Assembly: GCA_039030075.1 (NCBI GenBank)
Contig: JBCCEW010000019.1
Coordinates: forward strand, 1 to 64,000
Reading direction: 5' to 3'
DNA from: Myxococcota bacterium
GTDB lineage: Bacteria; Myxococcota_A; UBA9160; SMWR01
Length of the DNA: 64,000 bases
Shown in pieces: positions 14-49,703 of the stretch. Both the position numbers and the translations under genes were made by a program. The notes beneath the pieces are model-generated. The model was not told the DNA's origin. It searched no databases and saw only the letters and a program-made list of their open reading frames with translations. How positions within the stretch are numbered: position 1 is the first letter of the stretch; every line of letters starts with the position of its first letter.

Positions 14-301
14 ATGAAGATCCGTCCGTTGCAGGACCGGATTCTCGTCAAGCGGATCGACGAGGAAGAGACGACGAAGGGCGGGATCATCATTCCCGAC
101 ACGGCGAAGGAGAAGCCCTCGGAGGGCAAGGTGGTGGCCGTGGGCAATGGGAAGGTGAGCGAGGACGGCAAGGTGCAGCCGCTGGACGTGAAGAAGGGCG
201 ATCGCGTGCTGTTCAGCAAGTACGCGGGGACCGAGGTTCAGGTGGACGGTGACGAGCACATCATCATTCGCGAGGACGATGTCCTCGGGGTCATGGAGTA
301 A
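14..301 (+). CDS. groES: Co-chaperonin GroES (Hsp10)
   Basis: This 95-residue protein is the normal length for GroES, the heptameric lid that caps GroEL and encloses substrate in the cytoplasm. It begins with the classic [15 protein letters not shown] segment. The mobile loop that contacts GroEL is visible as [19 protein letters not shown] (about residues 17-35), and the fold closes with [11 protein letters not shown]. An AAGGAG ribosome-binding site lies at positions 1-6, just before the ATG. groEL follows after 6 bp, so the two form one operon. The promoter, and any HrcA operator (CIRCE), lies outside the window to the left. Identity is certain from sequence. Confidence 0.98.
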
Positions 302-1954
<1,653 letters not shown>

Positions 1955-2118
1955 CTCCGCGTCCGCTCCGCGGACGCTGCGCGCCGAGCGGGCGGTGGCG
2001 GTCACACGGGGAAACCCGAGGCCGCGCCGCCCGGGTCCGGCTTGCTCGGCTGGGACGCGGTGCTCGATCGCACCGACTCAGCCCTCGGCCCCCGAGGAAG
2101 AGAAAGCCTGGAAACGAG

Positions 2119-2151
2119 AGAGCCCCGGAGCTGACGCTCCGGGGCTCTTTT
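2119..2151 (+). terminator. Rho-independent terminator of groESL
   Basis: A perfect 12-bp inverted repeat (AGAGCCCCGGAG / CTCCGGGGCTCT) flanks a 6-nt loop and ends in TTTT, which is a canonical intrinsic terminator for groEL on the plus strand. A second small hairpin (GCGTTCGC / GCGAACGC) follows at about 2152-2170. The histone gene converges on this site from the other side at 2187, so these hairpins may terminate both transcripts. The 1955-2186 gap holds no convincing gene. Confidence 0.85.
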
Positions 2152-2186
2152 GCGTTCGCTTCGCGAACGCCGGAGCTCCGCTCCGG

Positions 2187-2396
2187 TCAGCCGACCTGCG
2201 AGCGAGCGTTCGCGATATCGGCGTCCATCAGCGTCTTGCGCTTGTTCTCTTCCGCGGACTGGTTCGCGGCGCGCGCCAACCGACCGAGGTACTCCTCGGC
2301 CGCTTCTACGGCCTTGTCCAGCGCGGAACCCGACACACGCATTCCGCCAGCGTGCTCGCTGAGCACTCGCTTCACCACAGCCTTGGGCAGACTCAT
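2187..2396 (-). CDS. Archaeal-type (bacterial) histone-fold protein
   Basis: A 69-residue protein that reads as a single histone fold. It has a short helix 1 (about residues 3-14, starting SLPKAVVKRVL), a loop with the conserved MRVSGSA (19-25), a long helix 2 (about 25-53), a loop with NKRKTL (53-58) and a short helix 3 starting DADIANA. The RVS and RKT..D elements match archaeal HMf-type histones and the bacterial histones described in Bdellovibrio and some Leptospira. No tail or second fold is present, so it would act as a dimer or larger assembly. The ATG at 2396 is chosen because AGGAGGGGG precedes it; a longer frame upstream lacks this support and reads as the esterase in another frame. 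It lies 58 bp downstream of the esterase on the same strand. DNA binding is inferred from the family, not shown. Confidence 0.85.
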   Translation of the reverse strand: MSLPKAVVKRVLSEHAGGMRVSGSALDKAVEAAEEYLGRLARAANQSAEENKRKTLMDADIANARSQVG

Positions 2397-2454
2397 AACC
2401 CCCTCCTGCGATCGCCCCTGCGGGGCATGGGATCGGAACCTCTCCGGGAGCAAC

Positions 2455-3231
2455 TTAGCGCAGGGGCGACCGACGGGAACGCGTGACGAAGGCGGCCACC
2501 CGGGCGGCCAGATGGGGCCCGTCGTGGTCGACGGGCACCACGTGGCCCGAGTTCCCGAGCCAGCAGAGCTCGCGCTCGGGCGAGCCGACCGTCCGGGCGA
2601 TGGTCCGGGCATCGTCGGGGTGGGCCGTGTAGTCGAGCCGGCCGTGGGCCACGAGAATCGGCGCCTGGATCTGGGCGAGCAGCGGCCGCACGCGCTGCTG
2701 GAGCTTGACCAGCTCGTGGACCCCCGCCATCGGCATCACCGGCATGCTCGGGTGAACGGCCCGTGCGACGGGGTCTCGGATGTCCGAGCCGCGCCGCTTT
2801 CGCAGATAGGGCAGGAGCCGCTTCACCACGGGGATCAGGGGCACGAGCCGGGTGTGGAACTGCAGGGGCGTGCCCACTGCGACGACCGCATCCACGTCCG
2901 GCTCCTCCGCCGCCAGGCAGAGCGAGAGCAGACCGCCGAGCGAGAGGCCGAGCACGAACACCCGCTCGTGTTCGGCGCGGAGGGCCCGATAGCGCGCCCG
3001 GGCGGCCTCGAGCCACGCCTCATAGGGGATCTCGGCCAGGGCCTCGGGTTCCCCGCCATGGCCCGGCAGGCAGGGGCCAACCGCGCGCACGCCGTGCTCC
3101 GCCAGCGCCTCACCGAGCCGACGCACTTCATAGGGCGTACCGGTCAGGCCATGCAGACACAGGGCGGCGTCGCGGCCCGATCCCAGATCGAAGGCCCGCG
3201 CGTCGACGGCGGGCGGATCTTCGGCGCTCAC
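2455..3231 (-). CDS. Alpha/beta-hydrolase, carboxylesterase (Est30-like)
   Basis: A 258-residue serine hydrolase of the monoacylglycerol lipase/carboxylesterase type. The oxyanion-hole segment LCLHGLTGTPYEVRRL (about residues 24-39), the nucleophile elbow GLSLGG (95-100, Ser97), an acidic residue in HGRLDYTAHPDDA (about 196-208) and the catalytic His in NSGHVVPVD (about 227-235) are all visible. No signal peptide is seen, so it is probably cytoplasmic. The GTG start at 3231 overlaps the larC stop by 4 bp, so the two are translationally coupled. The substrate is not predictable beyond short- to medium-chain esters. It might detoxify or recycle an ester made elsewhere; the link to nickel cofactor synthesis is only positional. 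Confidence 0.85.
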   Translation of the reverse strand: MSAEDPPAVDARAFDLGSGRDAALCLHGLTGTPYEVRRLGEALAEHGVRAVGPCLPGHGGEPEALAEIPYEAWLEAARARYRALRAEHERVFVLGLSLGGLLSLCLAAEEPDVDAVVAVGTPLQFHTRLVPLIPVVKRLLPYLRKRRGSDIRDPVARAVHPSMPVMPMAGVHELVKLQQRVRPLLAQIQAPILVAHGRLDYTAHPDDARTIARTVGSPERELCWLGNSGHVVPVDHDGPHLAARVAAFVTRSRRSPLR

Positions 3232-4625
3232 CCGCGCGCTGCCTCCTCCACGACCCGCACCACCTCGCGGAGCGGAACGTCGTGCTTGCGCGCCGCGCGG
3301 ATGCAGTCGTCGATCTCGGCCGACACGCTCTCCCTGCCGTCGGGATCCCAGACCACCTTCACGCCGATCCTCCCGTAGGGCGTATCGACGCGACGCGATT
3401 CGCGCCGGAGCACGATCCGGTCGACCTCCGACACCCGCACCCCGAGCGCCGTGGATTCGGCGAACAGGATCCGGGCCAGGGCGACGCGGTCCGAGGGGCG
3501 TCCCAGCACGCGCACCAGGATGCCGGGCCGGTTCTTCTTCATCTGAAGCGGCTGCAGCGCGACGTCGAGCGCACCGGCTTCGAACAGACGCTCCATCAAG
3601 AAGGCGAAGTGCTCGGGCACCAGATCGTCGAGGTTCGTCTCGAGACACACCACGCGATCCCGCTCGGTTCCCTGCGCGCTTCCCATCACCGCGCGCAGCA
3701 CGTTGGGCATGCCGTGCGAGCGATCGTTGCCGGCGCCGTAGCCGATCGCCTCGACGGTCATGGCCGGCAGGGGTCCGTACTCGTCGACGATCGTGCGCAG
3801 GATCGCAGCGCCCGTCGGGGTGACCGTCTCCCACTCGGTATGGGCGGGCACCGTCGGGACGCCGCGCAGCAGCTCGAGCGTGGCCGGGGCCGGCAAGGGA
3901 AGCCGTCCGTGGTCGGTCTCGACCGTCCCCTCGCCGAGCGCGACGGGGGTGGCGCTCACCCGTTCGATCCCGAGACGCGCCAACCCGATCGCCGCACCCG
4001 TCACATCGACGATTGCATCGACGGCGCCGACCTCGTGGAAGTGGACGCGCTCGAGGGGCAACCCGTGCACTCGGGCCTCGGCTTCGCCGAGGGCGGTGAA
4101 GATCGCGATCGCACGGGCGCGCACGTCCGCGTCGAGGCGTGCGCCCTCGAGCAGCTTCACGATCTCGCGATAGCTCCGTCCGTGGCTGTGGGCGTGGTGG
4201 CCGTGATGGTGGTGGTGATCGTCGTGGGCGGCCGCTCTCGCCTTCGCAGGCTTCCGCGGCGCCTGATGGGTGTCACGCCCGGAGCGGGCCCCAGGAACCC
4301 GGACGTCGACGTACTTCGCCGCCAAGGCACCGCGCTGCACCTTCTTCACGACCAGCTTGTGGGCGACGCCGAGACCCGCCAGGTCTTCCACCAACGCGCT
4401 CCGCGACAACCCCAGGTCGAGCAAGGCCCCGAGGAACATGTTGCCGGCGATGCCCGAGAAGGTGTCGAGGTGCAGGACGCTCCCGCCGCTGGACGCGCTC
4501 GATCCCCCCGAAGAGGACTTCCGCTTCGACGCTCGCGCCGAGCGCCCGGCGGCGTTCCCCCGACTGCTGGTGCCGCCTCCAGCGCGCGTGCGCGAACTAG
4601 AGCCGGTTGATGAGCGTCGCGACAT
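3228..4625 (-). CDS. larC: Nickel-pincer cofactor biosynthesis protein LarC
   Basis: LarC is the CTP-dependent cyclometallase that inserts nickel into the pyridinium bis-thiocarboxylate made by LarB and LarE, producing the nickel-pincer nucleotide of lactate racemase and related LarA enzymes. The core begins VLHLDTFSGIAGNMFLGALL at residue 50. It has a His-rich nickel-binding stretch (HDDHHHHHGHHAHSH, about 134-148), then VHFHEVGAVDAIVD (194-207) and the C-terminal half ending at VVEEAARG. The frame is continuous, unlike lactobacillus larC, which needs a frameshift. The ATG at 4625 gives a 49-residue Ser/Arg/Gly-rich leader overlapping larB by 29 bp. No other ATG, GTG or TTG exists before the core, so either the leader is real or a CTG at 4475 starts translation. 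Confidence 0.92.
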   Translation of the reverse strand: MSRRSSTGSSSRTRAGGGTSSRGNAAGRSARASKRKSSSGGSSASSGGSVLHLDTFSGIAGNMFLGALLDLGLSRSALVEDLAGLGVAHKLVVKKVQRGALAAKYVDVRVPGARSGRDTHQAPRKPAKARAAAHDDHHHHHGHHAHSHGRSYREIVKLLEGARLDADVRARAIAIFTALGEAEARVHGLPLERVHFHEVGAVDAIVDVTGAAIGLARLGIERVSATPVALGEGTVETDHGRLPLPAPATLELLRGVPTVPAHTEWETVTPTGAAILRTIVDEYGPLPAMTVEAIGYGAGNDRSHGMPNVLRAVMGSAQGTERDRVVCLETNLDDLVPEHFAFLMERLFEAGALDVALQPLQMKKNRPGILVRVLGRPSDRVALARILFAESTALGVRVSEVDRIVLRRESRRVDTPYGRIGVKVVWDPDGRESVSAEIDDCIRAARKHDVPLREVVRVVEEAARG

Positions 4626-5346
4626 AGGCAGCGCCGAACCCGTTGTCGATGTTCACCGTCGTCACGTTGGACGCGCAGCTCGTCAGCATGCCGAGCAGGG
4701 CGGCGAGCCCGTCGAAGGCGGCGCCGTATCCGACGCTGGTGGGAACCGCGATCACCGGCTTGGCGACCAGGCCACCGACGACCGAGGGCAGCGCCCCTTC
4801 CATTCCCGCCACGACGATCAGGACCCGGGCCGAGCGCAGCGTGTCACTCGCCGCGAGCAGCCGGTGCAGGCCCGCGACGCCCACGTCGACCAGCAGGTCG
4901 ACCTTGTTCCCGAAGTGGCGGGCCACCTGGGCGGCCTCGCGCGCCACGGGCAGGTCGGCGGTGCCGGCCGCGACGACGGCGATCGTGCCCTTCCCGATCG
5001 GCGCCACCTCTGCGGGCCCGACCCAGAAGGTGCGTGCCACGGGCTCGTAGAAACCCATCCCGAGGCGCTCCTGCACCTCTTCGGCGGGACCGGCCTCGAG
5101 GCGCGTGACGAGCACGTCCTGCCCCTGCCCCCGCAGCGCCTGCACGATGTCATGGATCTGCTGGGGGGTCTTGCCGGGCGCGAACACCACCTCGGGCAAT
5201 CCCGCGCGCAGCGCGCGATGGGTGTCCACTCGCGCGTCGGCCACGTCGACGAAGGGGAGCCGCGCCAGTTCCTCGAGGGCGGCCTCCGTCTCGATCTCGC
5301 CTTCGCGTACGCGTTCGAGCAGCGCTCGCAGCTGGTCCGGATTCAC
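4597..5346 (-). CDS. larB: Nickel-pincer cofactor biosynthesis protein LarB
   Basis: A 249-residue protein matching LarB, which carboxylates and hydrolyses nicotinic acid adenine dinucleotide in the first step of nickel-pincer cofactor synthesis. The N-terminal helical part is followed by an AIR-carboxylase (PurE-like) domain: TIAVVAAGTADLPVAREAA (about 129-148), VDVGVAGLHRLL, VVAGMEGALPSVVGGL and PVIAVPTSVGYGA. It starts with GTG at 5346. larC overlaps its 3' end. The third enzyme (LarE) and the racemase (LarA) are not in this window, so they must be encoded elsewhere or the cofactor serves another LarA-family enzyme. Confidence 0.93.
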   Translation of the reverse strand: MNPDQLRALLERVREGEIETEAALEELARLPFVDVADARVDTHRALRAGLPEVVFAPGKTPQQIHDIVQALRGQGQDVLVTRLEAGPAEEVQERLGMGFYEPVARTFWVGPAEVAPIGKGTIAVVAAGTADLPVAREAAQVARHFGNKVDLLVDVGVAGLHRLLAASDTLRSARVLIVVAGMEGALPSVVGGLVAKPVIAVPTSVGYGAAFDGLAALLGMLTSCASNVTTVNIDNGFGAAYVATLINRL

Positions 5347-5406: not shown

Positions 5407-5973
5407 CTAGCGCGCGGCCTCGAGCTTCTCGATGTCCGGCAGGAAGACGTGCATCGCACGGAACTCACCGGCGCGATCGAAGATCTCGCTCTCGATGTAG
5501 AGCGGGGCCGGCGGCCGATGTCGGGGAGACATACGCGCCTGGAGCGCGGTCTCCGCGTCCTGGACGACGAGCTCGGGCAATCCCGGCAGGATCGTCATGC
5601 CCAGCGTATCCGCGATCGCCGAGACGGTTTGCGAGGCCAGGATGTTCCCGAACTCGGAGAGGGCCGAAGCCACCATCTCGGCCGGCGGGTCCTCGGCGCC
5701 GCACAAGAGCGAAACGACCGACCGGCGCGTCGTCGCCGGCAGGAACACCACGACCATCCCGGCCATCCCGCCGGAGATCTCGCAGAAGATGCCCGTCTCC
5801 CAATCGCCCCGCTTCCGGAAGCGATCCGGACCATGCACGAGCGGCACGCGGGTGAGCATGGTGCGACCGGCCAACCGGGCGAAGGCCGAGGCCGCCCAGC
5901 TGGCGCCGATGTGGGCCAGCTCCCGCAGCCGATCGATCTCGGCCTCGTCGATGCCGTCGAACGCCGTCGTCAT
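5407..5973 (-). CDS. cheC: CheC-family CheY-phosphate phosphatase
   Basis: A 188-residue CheC-like protein, last gene of the chemotaxis cluster. CheC proteins dephosphorylate CheY through paired E-x2-N motifs. The second motif is intact: SEFGNILASQ with Glu107, Asn110 and the Pro 23 residues later. The first is RELAHIGASWAA with Glu18 but His21 in place of the usual Asn, so only one active centre looks canonical. The ATG at 5973 overlaps the cheA stop by 4 bp, which indicates translational coupling. CheX or FliY are alternatives, but there is no FliN-like C-terminus, so CheC is the better call. It may be the only signal-termination device of this system here. Confidence 0.85.
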   Translation of the reverse strand: MTTAFDGIDEAEIDRLRELAHIGASWAASAFARLAGRTMLTRVPLVHGPDRFRKRGDWETGIFCEISGGMAGMVVVFLPATTRRSVVSLLCGAEDPPAEMVASALSEFGNILASQTVSAIADTLGMTILPGLPELVVQDAETALQARMSPRHRPPAPLYIESEIFDRAGEFRAMHVFLPDIEKLEAAR

Positions 5974-7577
5974 GCGATTTGATTCGGATCGACCAGGAAC
6001 ATCGGCCGTCCGTCTCCCAGGATGGTGAGTCCCGCGAGCCCGCGCGCGCCGCGCAAGAGCTCGGGGACGGGCTTCACGTAGATCTGCTGTTGGCCGCTCA
6101 CCCGCTCGGCAGAGAAGGCGACGCGTTCGCCGCGCACTTCGGTCAACACCAGGTGGGTCAGGTCGCCCGCGCTCCCGGCGCGCTGGGCAATGTGATCGCC
6201 TAGATCCAGGACCGGCACGAGTTCGTCTTCGAGCAGCGCAAAGGCGTCGGCCCCGCTGCGCTCGATGCTCTCCGTCGGACATTCCTCGATGCGCTCGACC
6301 TTGGCGATCGGGAACGCGACGGTCTCGGCCCCGACGCCGAGGAGCAACACCCGCTGCACCGCGGCGGCGATCGGCACCACGAGGGTCGTGGCGGTGCCGC
6401 GCCCGCGCTCGGTCGCGATCTCGACGGATCCGCCGAGCGACTCGAGGGCAGCGCGCACGGCGTCCATGCCGACGCCGCGTCCGGAAATCTCGGAGATCTC
6501 GCGCGCTGTCGACAGGCCGGGCTCGAAGACCAGGGCTGCGATCTGAGACGGCGCCAGGTCGTCGGCGAGGTCGGGGTGCACGACGCCGGCCGCCGTCGCG
6601 CGCTCGCGCACGGCGTCCAGGTCGATGCCCGATCCATCGTCGGAAATCGTGATGCGGATCGAATCCTTCTCGCGGCGCGCCTCGATCTGGATGCGCCCCA
6701 CCGGCGGCTTGCCGCCGGACTCGCGGTCTTCCGGGCGCTCGATACCGTGGTCCACCGCGTTGCGCAGCAGGTGGACGAGCGGATCGGAGAGGGCGTCGAG
6801 GATCGAGCGGTCCAGTTCGAGTTCGGAACCGCGGATCTCGACCTCGACGCGAACTCCCGCGCGTTCGGCCACATCGCGCGCCGTGCGGGGCAGCGGATCG
6901 AGGATCCGGGACAGGGGCGTAGTCCGCAGCTCGAGGGCGCGGCGCTGGAGCTCGCCCACGACGCGATCCATCCGGTCGAGGCCTTCGGAGACGCCACCGC
7001 CCTGGTGGGTGTCGGCCTCGGCGCTCGTGCGGACCTGGCTCGTCGAGAGGATCACCTCTCCGACCGTCGACAGGAAGCGGTCGAGGGTGGCCGTGTTCAC
7101 GCGGACCGTCGGCGGCGGCCGCGAAGCGTCGAAGCCGCTCGGCGGAGCAGGCCGTTCGCGCGTGGGCGGCGCCTCGCGGGTCGACACCGGCGCGGGGGTC
7201 GCCAGCGCCGGTTCGTCGAGGGCCGCCAGCAGGGCCGGGTCGGCAGGCCCGGGTTCGCCGTCGTCCTTCACCGAATCGACCATGCCCTCGAGCGCCGTCA
7301 GCCCCCGGAACAAGAGCGAGAGCTCCTCCGGCGGGCCCACCACTCCAGCCTCGCGGATCACCTGCATGCGATCCTCGAGCTTGTGTGCAACGGCCGTGAT
7401 CTGGTCGTAGCCGAGGGAGGCGGCCATTCCCTTGATCGAGTGGGCCATGCGAAAGACGGTGTCGATCGCTTCCGCACTCCGTGGGTCCTTCTCGAGTTCG
7501 AGCAAGGCTCGACTCATCTCGGCGAAGTGCTCCGTCGACTCCTCGATGAAGATCGTCCGGTACTTCGCGAGGTCCAC
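5970..7577 (-). CDS. cheA: Chemotaxis histidine kinase CheA lacking a P2 domain
   Basis: This 535-residue CheA-type kinase starts with GTG, 2 bp after cheY. Domains in order: P1/Hpt (about 1-105) with the phospho-accepting His47 in MAHSIKG; a proline-rich linker (about 106-158); P3 dimerisation (about 160-225); P4 ATPase with the N-box LLRNAVDHG (271-278), DDGSG (313-317) and GRGVGMD (366-372); and the P5 CheW-like domain (about 405-535). The linker is too short for the CheY-docking P2 domain, and the protein is well below the roughly 650 residues of Escherichia coli CheA. It phosphorylates the CheY encoded just upstream under control of the MCP/CheW array. Confidence 0.95.
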   Translation of the reverse strand: MDLAKYRTIFIEESTEHFAEMSRALLELEKDPRSAEAIDTVFRMAHSIKGMAASLGYDQITAVAHKLEDRMQVIREAGVVGPPEELSLLFRGLTALEGMVDSVKDDGEPGPADPALLAALDEPALATPAPVSTREAPPTRERPAPPSGFDASRPPPTVRVNTATLDRFLSTVGEVILSTSQVRTSAEADTHQGGGVSEGLDRMDRVVGELQRRALELRTTPLSRILDPLPRTARDVAERAGVRVEVEIRGSELELDRSILDALSDPLVHLLRNAVDHGIERPEDRESGGKPPVGRIQIEARREKDSIRITISDDGSGIDLDAVRERATAAGVVHPDLADDLAPSQIAALVFEPGLSTAREISEISGRGVGMDAVRAALESLGGSVEIATERGRGTATTLVVPIAAAVQRVLLLGVGAETVAFPIAKVERIEECPTESIERSGADAFALLEDELVPVLDLGDHIAQRAGSAGDLTHLVLTEVRGERVAFSAERVSGQQQIYVKPVPELLRGARGLAGLTILGDGRPMFLVDPNQIA

Positions 7578-7579
7578 GA

Positions 7580-7948
7580 TCAGTCGCCCTTCTCGAGCAC
7601 CTTGTTCAGGGTCGCGATCACCGACTCGGGCTTGAAGGGCTTCACGATGAAGTCCTTCGCGCCGGCCTGGAGCGCTTCCTGCACGAGCGTCTCTTGACCG
7701 AGCGCGCTGCACATGACCACGCACGCATTCGCGTCGACGCTGATGATGCCCTTCACGGCATCGATGCCCGACCGGCGCGGCATGACGATGTCCATCGTCA
7801 CCACGTCCGGATGGAGGCGCTTCCACTCCTCCACGGCCTCGTCGCCGTCGGATGCTTCGCCCACGACCTCGTGTCCTTCCGCTTCGACGATCTCGCGGAT
7901 CATCTGTCGCATGAAGGACGCGTCATCTGCTACCAGCACTCGCGCCAT
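7580..7948 (-). CDS. cheY: Response regulator CheY (stand-alone receiver domain)
   Basis: A 122-residue single receiver domain. The acidic pair Asp8-Asp9, phospho-acceptor Asp53 in TMDIVMPRRSG, the Ser81 switch residue in MCSALGQ and Lys103 in VKPFKPE are all in place. No output domain is present. It lies between cheW and cheA and is the obvious CheA target. Output could be the flagellar motor or another target, because no flagellar genes are in the window. The order mcp-cheW-cheY-cheA-cheC with tiny gaps indicates one transcript. Confidence 0.95.
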   Translation of the reverse strand: MARVLVADDASFMRQMIREIVEAEGHEVVGEASDGDEAVEEWKRLHPDVVTMDIVMPRRSGIDAVKGIISVDANACVVMCSALGQETLVQEALQAGAKDFIVKPFKPESVIATLNKVLEKGD

Positions 7949-7966
7949 CGTTCGTACCCCCGTCTT

Positions 7967-8419
7967 TCACTCACCCCGAGCGAGTGAGTCTTCGATCACT
8001 TTCTTCGCGCGCGCCACCAGACGCGCGGGATCCAGGATGTGTGCCAAGCGCCCATCCATCGGGCGCTTCTCGACCACCGGGTCCTGTCCGCGACCCGCGG
8101 TGCAGGTGCCGTCGACCAGGCCGAGGACACGGTCCACCGAGAGCCCCAGGCAGGGGATTCCCGCCGGGCGATCGCTGATCACGAGCAGGTGCTCGCCGTC
8201 CGCGGGCGTGCCGCGCGTCGGCTCGAGCAGGCAGCCGCGATTCACCACGGGCAGTGCGTCGCCGCGGTAGTTCACCACGCCGGCGACGTCGCGCGGCAGG
8301 GTGGGAATGCACGCGACTTCACCGAACTCGGCGACCTCGTGAACCCCCTCGATCGGCAGCGCGAAGAGCGATGCCCCGATCTCGAAGGTCAGCAGGCGAT
8401 CCTGGATGAGCGCGCTCAT
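7967..8419 (-). CDS. cheW: Chemotaxis adaptor CheW
   Basis: A 150-residue CheW SH3-like adaptor that links the receptor to CheA P5. Recognisable parts are [20 protein letters not shown] (about 10-29), [14 protein letters not shown] (about 47-60) and [26 protein letters not shown] (about 78-103). The ATG overlaps the mcp stop by 4 bp, so receptor and adaptor are translationally coupled. A 47-residue segment follows the core fold ([18 protein letters not shown]), a slight extension on the usual C-terminus. Confidence 0.93.
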
Positions 8420-9684
8420 GAGGCGCCTCCGCCCGTGTCGAAGCGGTGGAGTACCTCGCGCAGCTCCTCGGCCAGGCCCGTCAGCGACTGGCTCGCGTCG
8501 ACCATCTGCGACATCGAGTCGACCTGACCGTGGGCCGTCCCGGCCACGCCCTCGATCGCCTCGGCGTTGCGCACCGCGACGCGCCCGATCTGCTCCATCG
8601 ACTCGACCATGCGCTGGACGTCCATCGCCTGGGTGTCCGCGCCCTCGAAGATCTCCTCGGCGCGGCGCGCGGCCTCACCGACGGCCGAGCGGATCTGCTC
8701 GAGCGAGGCCGCCACGGTGTCGACGTCCTCGCGGCCCTCGCCGACGACCACGCTCGATTCGCGCATGCCTTCGGCCACCTCGTTGGTGTCCGACTCGATC
8801 TCGTGAATGAGCTTCGCGATCTCCTCGGCGCTGCGGCCGGCGTTCTCGGCGAGCTTGCGAATCTCGTCGGCGACCACCGAGAAGCCACGGCCGGCCTCAC
8901 CGGCGCGTGCCGCCTCGATCGACGCGTTCAGCGACAGCAGGTTCGTCCGCTGGGCGACGCTCGTGATGATCTCGGTGATCTGGTGCACGTGGCGCGTCTT
9001 CGCCTCGAGCTCGAACACCCGTGCCACGGCGTGCTCCACGCGCTCGAAGACCGTGCGCATCTTCTCGATGGCGAGACGGGCGACGTCGACACCCGACCCG
9101 GCCTTCTGGTTCGCCTCGGCGGCGAAGCCGAAGGCCTCGCGCGCGCGCGACGCATTGAGTTCGATGGCCGACGCGATCTCCTGCACGAGTCGCGTGGTGT
9201 CGCCCAGCCGGCGCTGCTGCTCGGCGACGTCGCTGGCCAGCGCCGCTACCGCCGAGGTGATGCCTTCGTGTCCGCCGGAGAGCGCTTCCGCCGTGCGGCG
9301 CAGCTCCACCGAGGAGTGTTCCACGCGGCGCGCGGTCGTCTTCACGCCGTCCACCAGCTCGCGCAGGCTCGCCGTCATGCCCTGCAGGCCACAGGCGAGA
9401 TCCCAGGTCTCGTCCGGAAAGCGCGGCGGCGCGCCGACGTCGCGGAGCGGACGCAGGTCGCCGCGGCTGATCTGATCACTCGCCGAGCGCAGCGCCGAGA
9501 ACGAGTGCGAAAGCGAGCGCGACCAGAAGTACCCGAGCACGCCACCGACACCGAGCGCCACGAAGGGCGCGAGCCACGGGGCCACGTGCACACCACTGCG
9601 GGTCAACACGAGAGGCAACCCGACCACGGCGGCGCCCACGATCAGCGCGCCCACTACGAACTTGTGCGTGAGTGCAACTCTCAC
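8416..9684 (-). CDS. Methyl-accepting chemotaxis protein without a periplasmic sensor domain
   Basis: This 422-residue receptor has two membrane segments (about residues 8-28 and 37-54) separated by fewer than 10 residues, so there is essentially no periplasmic ligand-binding domain. A HAMP-like segment (about 55-110) and a long cytoplasmic coiled coil follow. The kinase-control tip is clear: [20 protein letters not shown] (about 242-261), followed by [19 protein letters not shown]. It must sense a membrane, cytoplasmic or partner-protein signal. It starts with GTG at 9684. No CheR or CheB is encoded nearby, so whether it is methylated cannot be judged here. It is first in the che operon. Confidence 0.92.
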
Positions 9685-49627: not shown

Positions 49628-49703
49628 GGCCCGGTAGCTCAGTTGGTAGAGCACTCGACTGAAAATTGAGGTGTCGCCAGTTCGATTCTGGCCTGGGCCA
49701 CCA
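49628..49703 (+). tRNA. tRNA-Phe (GAA)
   Basis: The cloverleaf folds fully. Acceptor GGCCCGG pairs with CTGGGCC (one G-T pair). The D arm is GCTC/GAGC, and the anticodon stem is CTCGA/TTGAG with loop CTGAAAA, giving anticodon GAA. The T arm is GCCAG/CTGGC with loop TTCGATT. The discriminator is A at 49700 and CCA is encoded (49701-49703). Confidence 0.97.

Follow-up and report, generated by a model that had tools for sequence, protein, structure and literature searches.

The window, the whole 64,000-nucleotide stretch of Myxococcota bacterium contig JBCCEW010000019.1 that was analysed, contains near its start a minus-strand gene for a predicted small histone-fold protein. The gene follows larB, larC and an esterase-like hydrolase gene and faces groES and groEL (Table 1), and the Pfam matches of these neighbours confirm the arrangement in the original prediction, which put the gene head-on to groESL and downstream of larBC and an esterase.

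Table 1. Features at the histone-fold locus, with positions in the window.
Feature	Positions	Strand	Remarks
groES	14..301	+	PF00166 (Cpn10); conserved neighbour
groEL	308..1954	+	PF00118 (Cpn60); convergent with the histone gene, conserved in the class
Perfect hairpin	2115..2152		17-bp stem, 4-nt loop; lies in the histone-groEL interval
Predicted histone-fold gene	2187..2396	minus	69 aa; ATG at 2396, stop TGA at 2187-2189
Gap of 58 nt	2397..2454	minus	from hydrolase stop to histone start
Ribosome-binding site AGGAGGGGG	2399..2407	minus	just 5′ of the histone ATG
Alpha/beta-hydrolase (esterase-like)	2455..3231	minus	PF12146, PF00561; directly upstream of the histone gene
larC, nickel insertion protein	3228..4625	minus	PF01969 (Ni_insertion); conserved neighbour
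larB	4597..5346	minus	PF00731 (AIRC family); conserved neighbour

The histone gene and its expression signals

Translation of the histone gene gives the 69-residue product MSLPKAVVKRVLSEHAGGMRVSGSALDKAVEAAEEYLGRLARAANQSAEENKRKTLMDADIANARSQVG, in which MRVS occupies residues 19-22, RKT occupies residues 53-55, and D60 is the clamp aspartate. The strong ribosome-binding site reads gcaggagggggttATG, and the sequence preceding the ATG is gcaggagggggtt. The open reading frame, its length, its ribosome-binding site, and its MRVS and RKT..D motifs are thus as originally described; the strand, which had not been given, is minus. An upstream in-frame ATG would yield a product of 141 residues, a start that we rejected because the ribosome-binding site and the conserved N-terminus of the family favour the 69-residue start. 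Longer plus-strand reading frames overlap the gene and look like ordinary high-GC shadow frames. That the histone frame is itself a shadow frame or a chance reading frame was rejected: its match to PF00808 (E = 4e-12), its 50 orthologues of near-identical start, length and spacing, and a dN/dS of 0.02-0.22 in frame place it far beyond chance.

No sigma-70-like promoter was found in the region of the gap between the hydrolase and histone genes, which, together with the shortness of that gap, makes co-transcription of the histone gene with the lar genes possible. The hairpin beyond the histone gene (−35 kcal/mol, z = −5.9) has a TTTT run at its 3′ end on the plus strand; it is probably a terminator, and it possibly terminates in both directions. 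Codon adaptation to groEL is 0.50 for the histone gene versus 0.55-0.59 for neighbouring genes and, not being above that of the neighbours, lends no support to high abundance. Directly upstream of larB, the window carries CheC-, CheA-, CheY- and CheW-like genes (5407-8419); the CheC-like gene shares the strand of the histone gene and adjoins larB in much of the class. The sole Rfam match in the window is a tRNA gene (49628-49700).

Fold assignment and DNA-contact residues

The window protein matches PF00808 (CBFD_NFYB_HMF) over residues 1-64 with 46.6 bits (cut-off 21.4 bits; E = 4e-12) and the core histone profile PF00125 with 43.7 bits, well above its cut-off; the match to NCBIfam archaea_histone, at 38.8 bits, is under the cut-off of 50. 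By sequence, its best matches among solved structures are the histone-fold protein 1f1e, HmvA, and then archaeal histone A of 9qv5 and 9qv6. The structures matched by a profile of the family are archaeal and eukaryotic histones; HPhA (40.7 bits) and HmvA (about 39.5-40.7 bits) rank near the top, and the profile gives 33.9 bits on HMfA and 27.4 bits on HMfB; on bacterial histones it gives 23.1 bits on HBb, 12.5 on 9f2c and 7 on HLp. The original prediction had mentioned the histones of Bdellovibrio; with 34-41 bits on HPhA, HmvA and HMfA versus 23 on HBb, and with a full alpha-2, the family is not of that type.

Two AlphaFold2 runs, on alignments of only 2 and 4 sequences, gave models with pLDDT of 85 and 87 and pTM of 0.51-0.56. 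The models have alpha-1, loop 1 and alpha-2 as expected, and they merge alpha-2 and alpha-3 into one helix at this depth of 2-4 sequences, so that the anticipated helix pattern is recovered up to alpha-2 and not at L2 and alpha-3. Because the models have no L2 break, the fold claim rests on sequence. In a Foldseek search of the PDB with an AlphaFold2 model, the top rows are almost all histone folds, with E-values above 1, and the top rows of VIA-align, too, are almost all histone folds, mostly eukaryotic core histones, with Z of 5.0 or less; these weak matches are supportive of the assignment and do not amount to independent proof of it. Judged by the PF00808 match and by residue spacing, the window protein is, as predicted, a bacterial protein with one true histone fold of the archaeal type, and the profile search against histone-fold families that had been proposed as a check comes out in its favour.

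We aligned the orthologues with HMfA, HMfB, HPhA, HmvA, HBb, 9f2c, HLp and both halves of 1f1e. For HBb, 9f2c, HLp, HmvA and 1f1e, the sequences came from HMMER alignments and may lack their last residues. Residue numbers for the family are those of HMfB, whose sequence in the alignment was checked letter by letter. The distance from the loop-1 serine to RKT is 30 residues in all 50 orthologues, the same as in HMfB, HPhA and HmvA, versus 26 in HBb, 9f2c and HLp, and the short alpha-2 of face-to-face (FtF) histones is thus absent from the family. After RKT the family has another 14-18 residues; HMfB has 15, and the portion of HBb that was matched has 6. This leaves room for a full alpha-3, a helix that is not separated in the AlphaFold2 model.

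Residues P4, R10, R19 (the sprocket arginine), R52, K53, T54, M56 and D59 are invariant (50/50), including the complete R52-K53-T54...D59 clamp, and the L2 motif RKT[IVL]M[DE]xD is present in all aligned members. The N-terminus of the family is LPNAVVKR, not the S9-K10 motif of HBb. The C-terminal pattern ARAKLG is conserved; there is no extra domain, and the proteins end after alpha-3, with no HmvA-type extension. The dimer-dimer residues of the H49-type four-helix bundle are not kept among the 50 members. Specifically, H49, the residue by which archaeal dimers are locked into polymers, is replaced by A in 31 of 50 and next most commonly by R, K, E, S or G (E50 in the window protein), the L46 position is mostly S (36/50), and the L62 position is mostly K (25/50), with R, A, S, N and others also present.

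Distribution, context and other histones of the class

A PF00808 gene is present in 50 of 91 class genomes, in exactly one copy each; a phylum-wide sample of 379 genomes gave matches in these 50 and no PF00808-type match outside the class. The protein had been presented as unusual in bacteria, and within its class it is no oddity. The 50 orthologues have 69-74 residues and near-identical starts, and dN/dS between close pairs is 0.02-0.22 in the histone frame; the gene is under purifying selection. Absences in some genomes of family f1 (G004, G005 and G008) fall at contig ends. The HU/IHF family is present in 41 of 41 relatives.

The window-type histone had no match in the phages or plasmids searched, and scans of viral contigs returned two distant histones only. 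One is a 209-residue phage protein (L100:4674-5303; IMGVR_UViG_2860317346, 175 kb) whose histone fold, at residues 110-169, combines RKTIMDRD with an alpha-2 of full length; at 55.8 bits, it is the best match outside the family. Published 'phage histones' are described as lacking such a motif. The other is a canonical archaeal-type histone with H49 (L101:1447-1680; IMGVR_UViG_3300033145).

Nearly all 50 genomes have the gene in the order larB-larC-(esterase)-histone, with groEL-groES opposite. Of the loci with a contig long enough, most have larC or the esterase gene as the immediate upstream neighbour on the histone strand and a convergent groEL, and in most genomes the larB-larC series ends with the histone gene, the gaps being short. 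The locus is conserved class-wide with or without the esterase gene, and the second order (f12) has the arrangement as well. Because this context is conserved across the class, the histone gene looks ancestral there and not a stray acquisition. Stray horizontal transfer and a mis-binned archaeal contig were rejected, as groESL and larBC flank the same locus across two orders. In many relatives the histone-groEL interval is large enough for a further gene, which the interval in the window is not; in one relative (L050), a response-regulator/PilZ gene (7261-8628) lies between the two.

A second profile, built from HBb, 9f2c and HLp, gave histone-fold matches in 85 of 91 class genomes, and a sample of these matches comprised three types: a ZZ-type zinc-finger histone, a short histone, and an HBb-type singlet. 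Most class genomes carry one or two other histone-fold proteins. The ZZ-type histone, a known category (PMC11390915), is the likely source of most of the weaker matches to this profile. The short histone occurs in 83 of 91 class genomes and in most cases begins with a basic tail (MAARKKK...). In the genome of the window (G000), ZZ-zinc-finger and basic-tailed short histone genes lie at C14:8145-8312 on the plus strand (L152) and C4:183004-183210 on the minus strand (L153); the basic-tailed protein reads MAARKKKTSRKSAPAELIISKARTK...

The HBb-type singlet (EVLVVASKVK...RKTVLDRD; loci L147-L151, L154-L157 and L170) is present in 28 genomes: 27 belong to family f5 (30 genomes in all), and the other is G025 of family f10. 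No genome has both types (50 window-type, 28 HBb-type, overlap 0 among the 91). Family f5 retains the larB-larC-esterase order, and f5 contigs that reach groEL contain nothing significantly histone-like in the interval. In a larB+larC+groEL tree rooted on the gene-bearing f12, most f5 genomes fall within gene-bearing lineages; G039 is placed apart, with weak support. With f5 nested in this manner, the simplest interpretation is that f5 lost the window-type gene. No more than one or perhaps two evolutionary events underlie the complementary distribution, which therefore suggests, and does not prove, that the HBb-type histone replaced the window-type in f5. Ancestrally, the main singlet histone of the class was probably the window-type; in f5 the HBb-type dimeric histone would have that role. 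A larger claim, that the class ancestor had an archaeal-type histone as its main chromatin protein, possibly wrapping DNA, and that one family swapped it for the HBb-type, we put forward as a conjecture that is rather doubtful. The f5 swap is a natural test of the functional equivalence of two histone types, and, if this larger claim is true, two distantly related histone designs are interchangeable in bacterial chromosomes.

Predicted DNA binding and relation to known histones

We consider it moderately probable that the family acts as a homodimeric, sequence-nonspecific nucleoid protein that bends DNA through archaeal-type contacts and does not polymerise; the dimer, its binding and bending of DNA, its failure to polymerise and its role in the nucleoid are inferred. 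Two histone folds would pair head-to-tail as a homodimer, and the homodimer would bind about 30 bp on its alpha-1 face. The conserved K9/R10 helix would make contacts, as would the R53-D60 clamp and the two L1-L2 loops (sprocket R20, K54 and T55), and DNA would be bent as by one archaeal histone dimer. The class probably uses the protein in this way for bending and compacting its DNA. In particular, the sprocket arginine, which is absent from HBb, should give archaeal-type minor-groove contacts. Since other residues stand at the dimer-joining positions (A, E and others for H49; K, N and others for L62), each dimer is expected to bind on its own, next to HU/IHF, with no hypernucleosome polymer.

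Histones without H49 fail to form tetramers (PMC10627809). HBb, which has no H49, stays dimeric and is reported either to coat straight DNA (PMC10627809) or, as HMfB does, to bend it, by 84 degrees over 36 bp (PMC11317129). The substitutions A48H/S45F/I61L, which introduce the three archaeal interface residues, let Bd0055 bring DNA ends together, which a lengthened alpha-2 alone did not (PMC10627809). The family appears to resemble a natural counterpart of the lengthened HBb mutant, with a long alpha-2 and no interface, and this likeness makes single DNA-bending dimers the best reading.

Alternatively, the protein could be a true wrapping histone, in which full alpha-2/alpha-3 dimers stack or tetramerise by a non-canonical interface to form nucleosome-like particles. 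The full archaeal L1-L2 spacing and the length after RKT, close to that of HMfB and beyond that matched in HBb, agree with this, and the conserved ARAKLG pattern may serve as an interface. However, the HMf stacking pairs (34-65, 48-14 and 30-61) are mostly not kept in the family. In addition, H49, L46 and L62, residues tied to tetramerisation (PMC10627809), are polar, small or charged in most members, and we regard wrapping as unlikely. A specialised regulator or partner of NF-Y/NC2-like type, whose target might be the lar/groESL region or whose partners might be the ZZ or tailed histones, would be in keeping with the position of the gene after larB-larC, with codon usage that gives no sign of high expression, and with the two further histone-fold proteins of the same genome. 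It is harder to reconcile with invariant backbone-contact residues, the lack of an extra domain, and class-wide conservation with or without the esterase, and it too seems improbable to us. A DNA-bridging protein like Methanocaldococcus HmvA (MJ1647), with its similar PKATVKR helix, is suggested by the place of HmvA among the best solved-structure matches, by the common PKAxVKR motif, and by the lack of H49 in both. HmvA, however, bridges by an extra C-terminal tetramerisation region and has N for the sprocket arginine, whereas the family ends after alpha-3 and keeps the arginine in 50 of 50, which leaves bridging very improbable.

Nucleosomal-type histones have been stated to occur in archaea only (PMC11390915) or in archaea and eukaryotes only (PMC12701072), and bacterial singlet histones are described as having a shortened alpha-2 (PMC10627809). 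The class partly breaks these survey statements, combining archaeal nucleosomal length and DNA-contact residues with the loss of polymerisation residues, and, given the surveys, the window-type would be a new histone variant. No description of a bacterial singlet with full archaeal length and the sprocket arginine was found in the literature searched, supplementary tables aside, and such sequences may therefore sit unremarked in a published list. Myxococcota and Myxococcota_A are already named among histone carriers (PMC11390915), so that, if the class belongs there, the idea that the find adds a lineage is weakened; what it adds is a histone type.

Among known histones, the family shares with the archaeal HMfA/HMfB, HPhA and HTkA the 30-residue spacing from loop-1 serine to RKT, an LPxA N-terminus, a length of about 69 residues, R10, sprocket R19, R52-K53-T54, D59, and a slightly positive net charge (+2). 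It differs from these archaeal nucleosomal histones in having one extra loop 1 residue (GGGLR) and a basic K/R before RKT where they have G51, in lacking H49 and having mostly polar or charged residues at the L46/L62 dimer-dimer contacts, and in being bacterial, beside HU/IHF. HmvA (MJ1647, Methanococcales) is alike in its PKAxVKR alpha-1, full alpha-2 length and lack of H49, and differs in its C-terminal tetramerisation extension (96-residue chain) and in the N at the sprocket position. HLp, the face-to-face histone of Leptospira, is alike only as a histone fold in a bacterium, having a short alpha-2, a truncated alpha-3, and 7 bits to the family profile. HBb (Bd0055) shares the RKT...D motif, the lack of H49 and the form of a small tailless protein, and by analogy the family would also act as a dimer beside HU; HBb differs in an alpha-2 shorter by 4 residues, a truncated alpha-3, the S9-K10 motif, and the lack of a sprocket arginine. 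The family thus separates two traits that are joined in HBb, the best studied bacterial histone, a short helix and missing dimer-dimer contacts, and this separation makes it testable which of the two decides between bending and wrapping.
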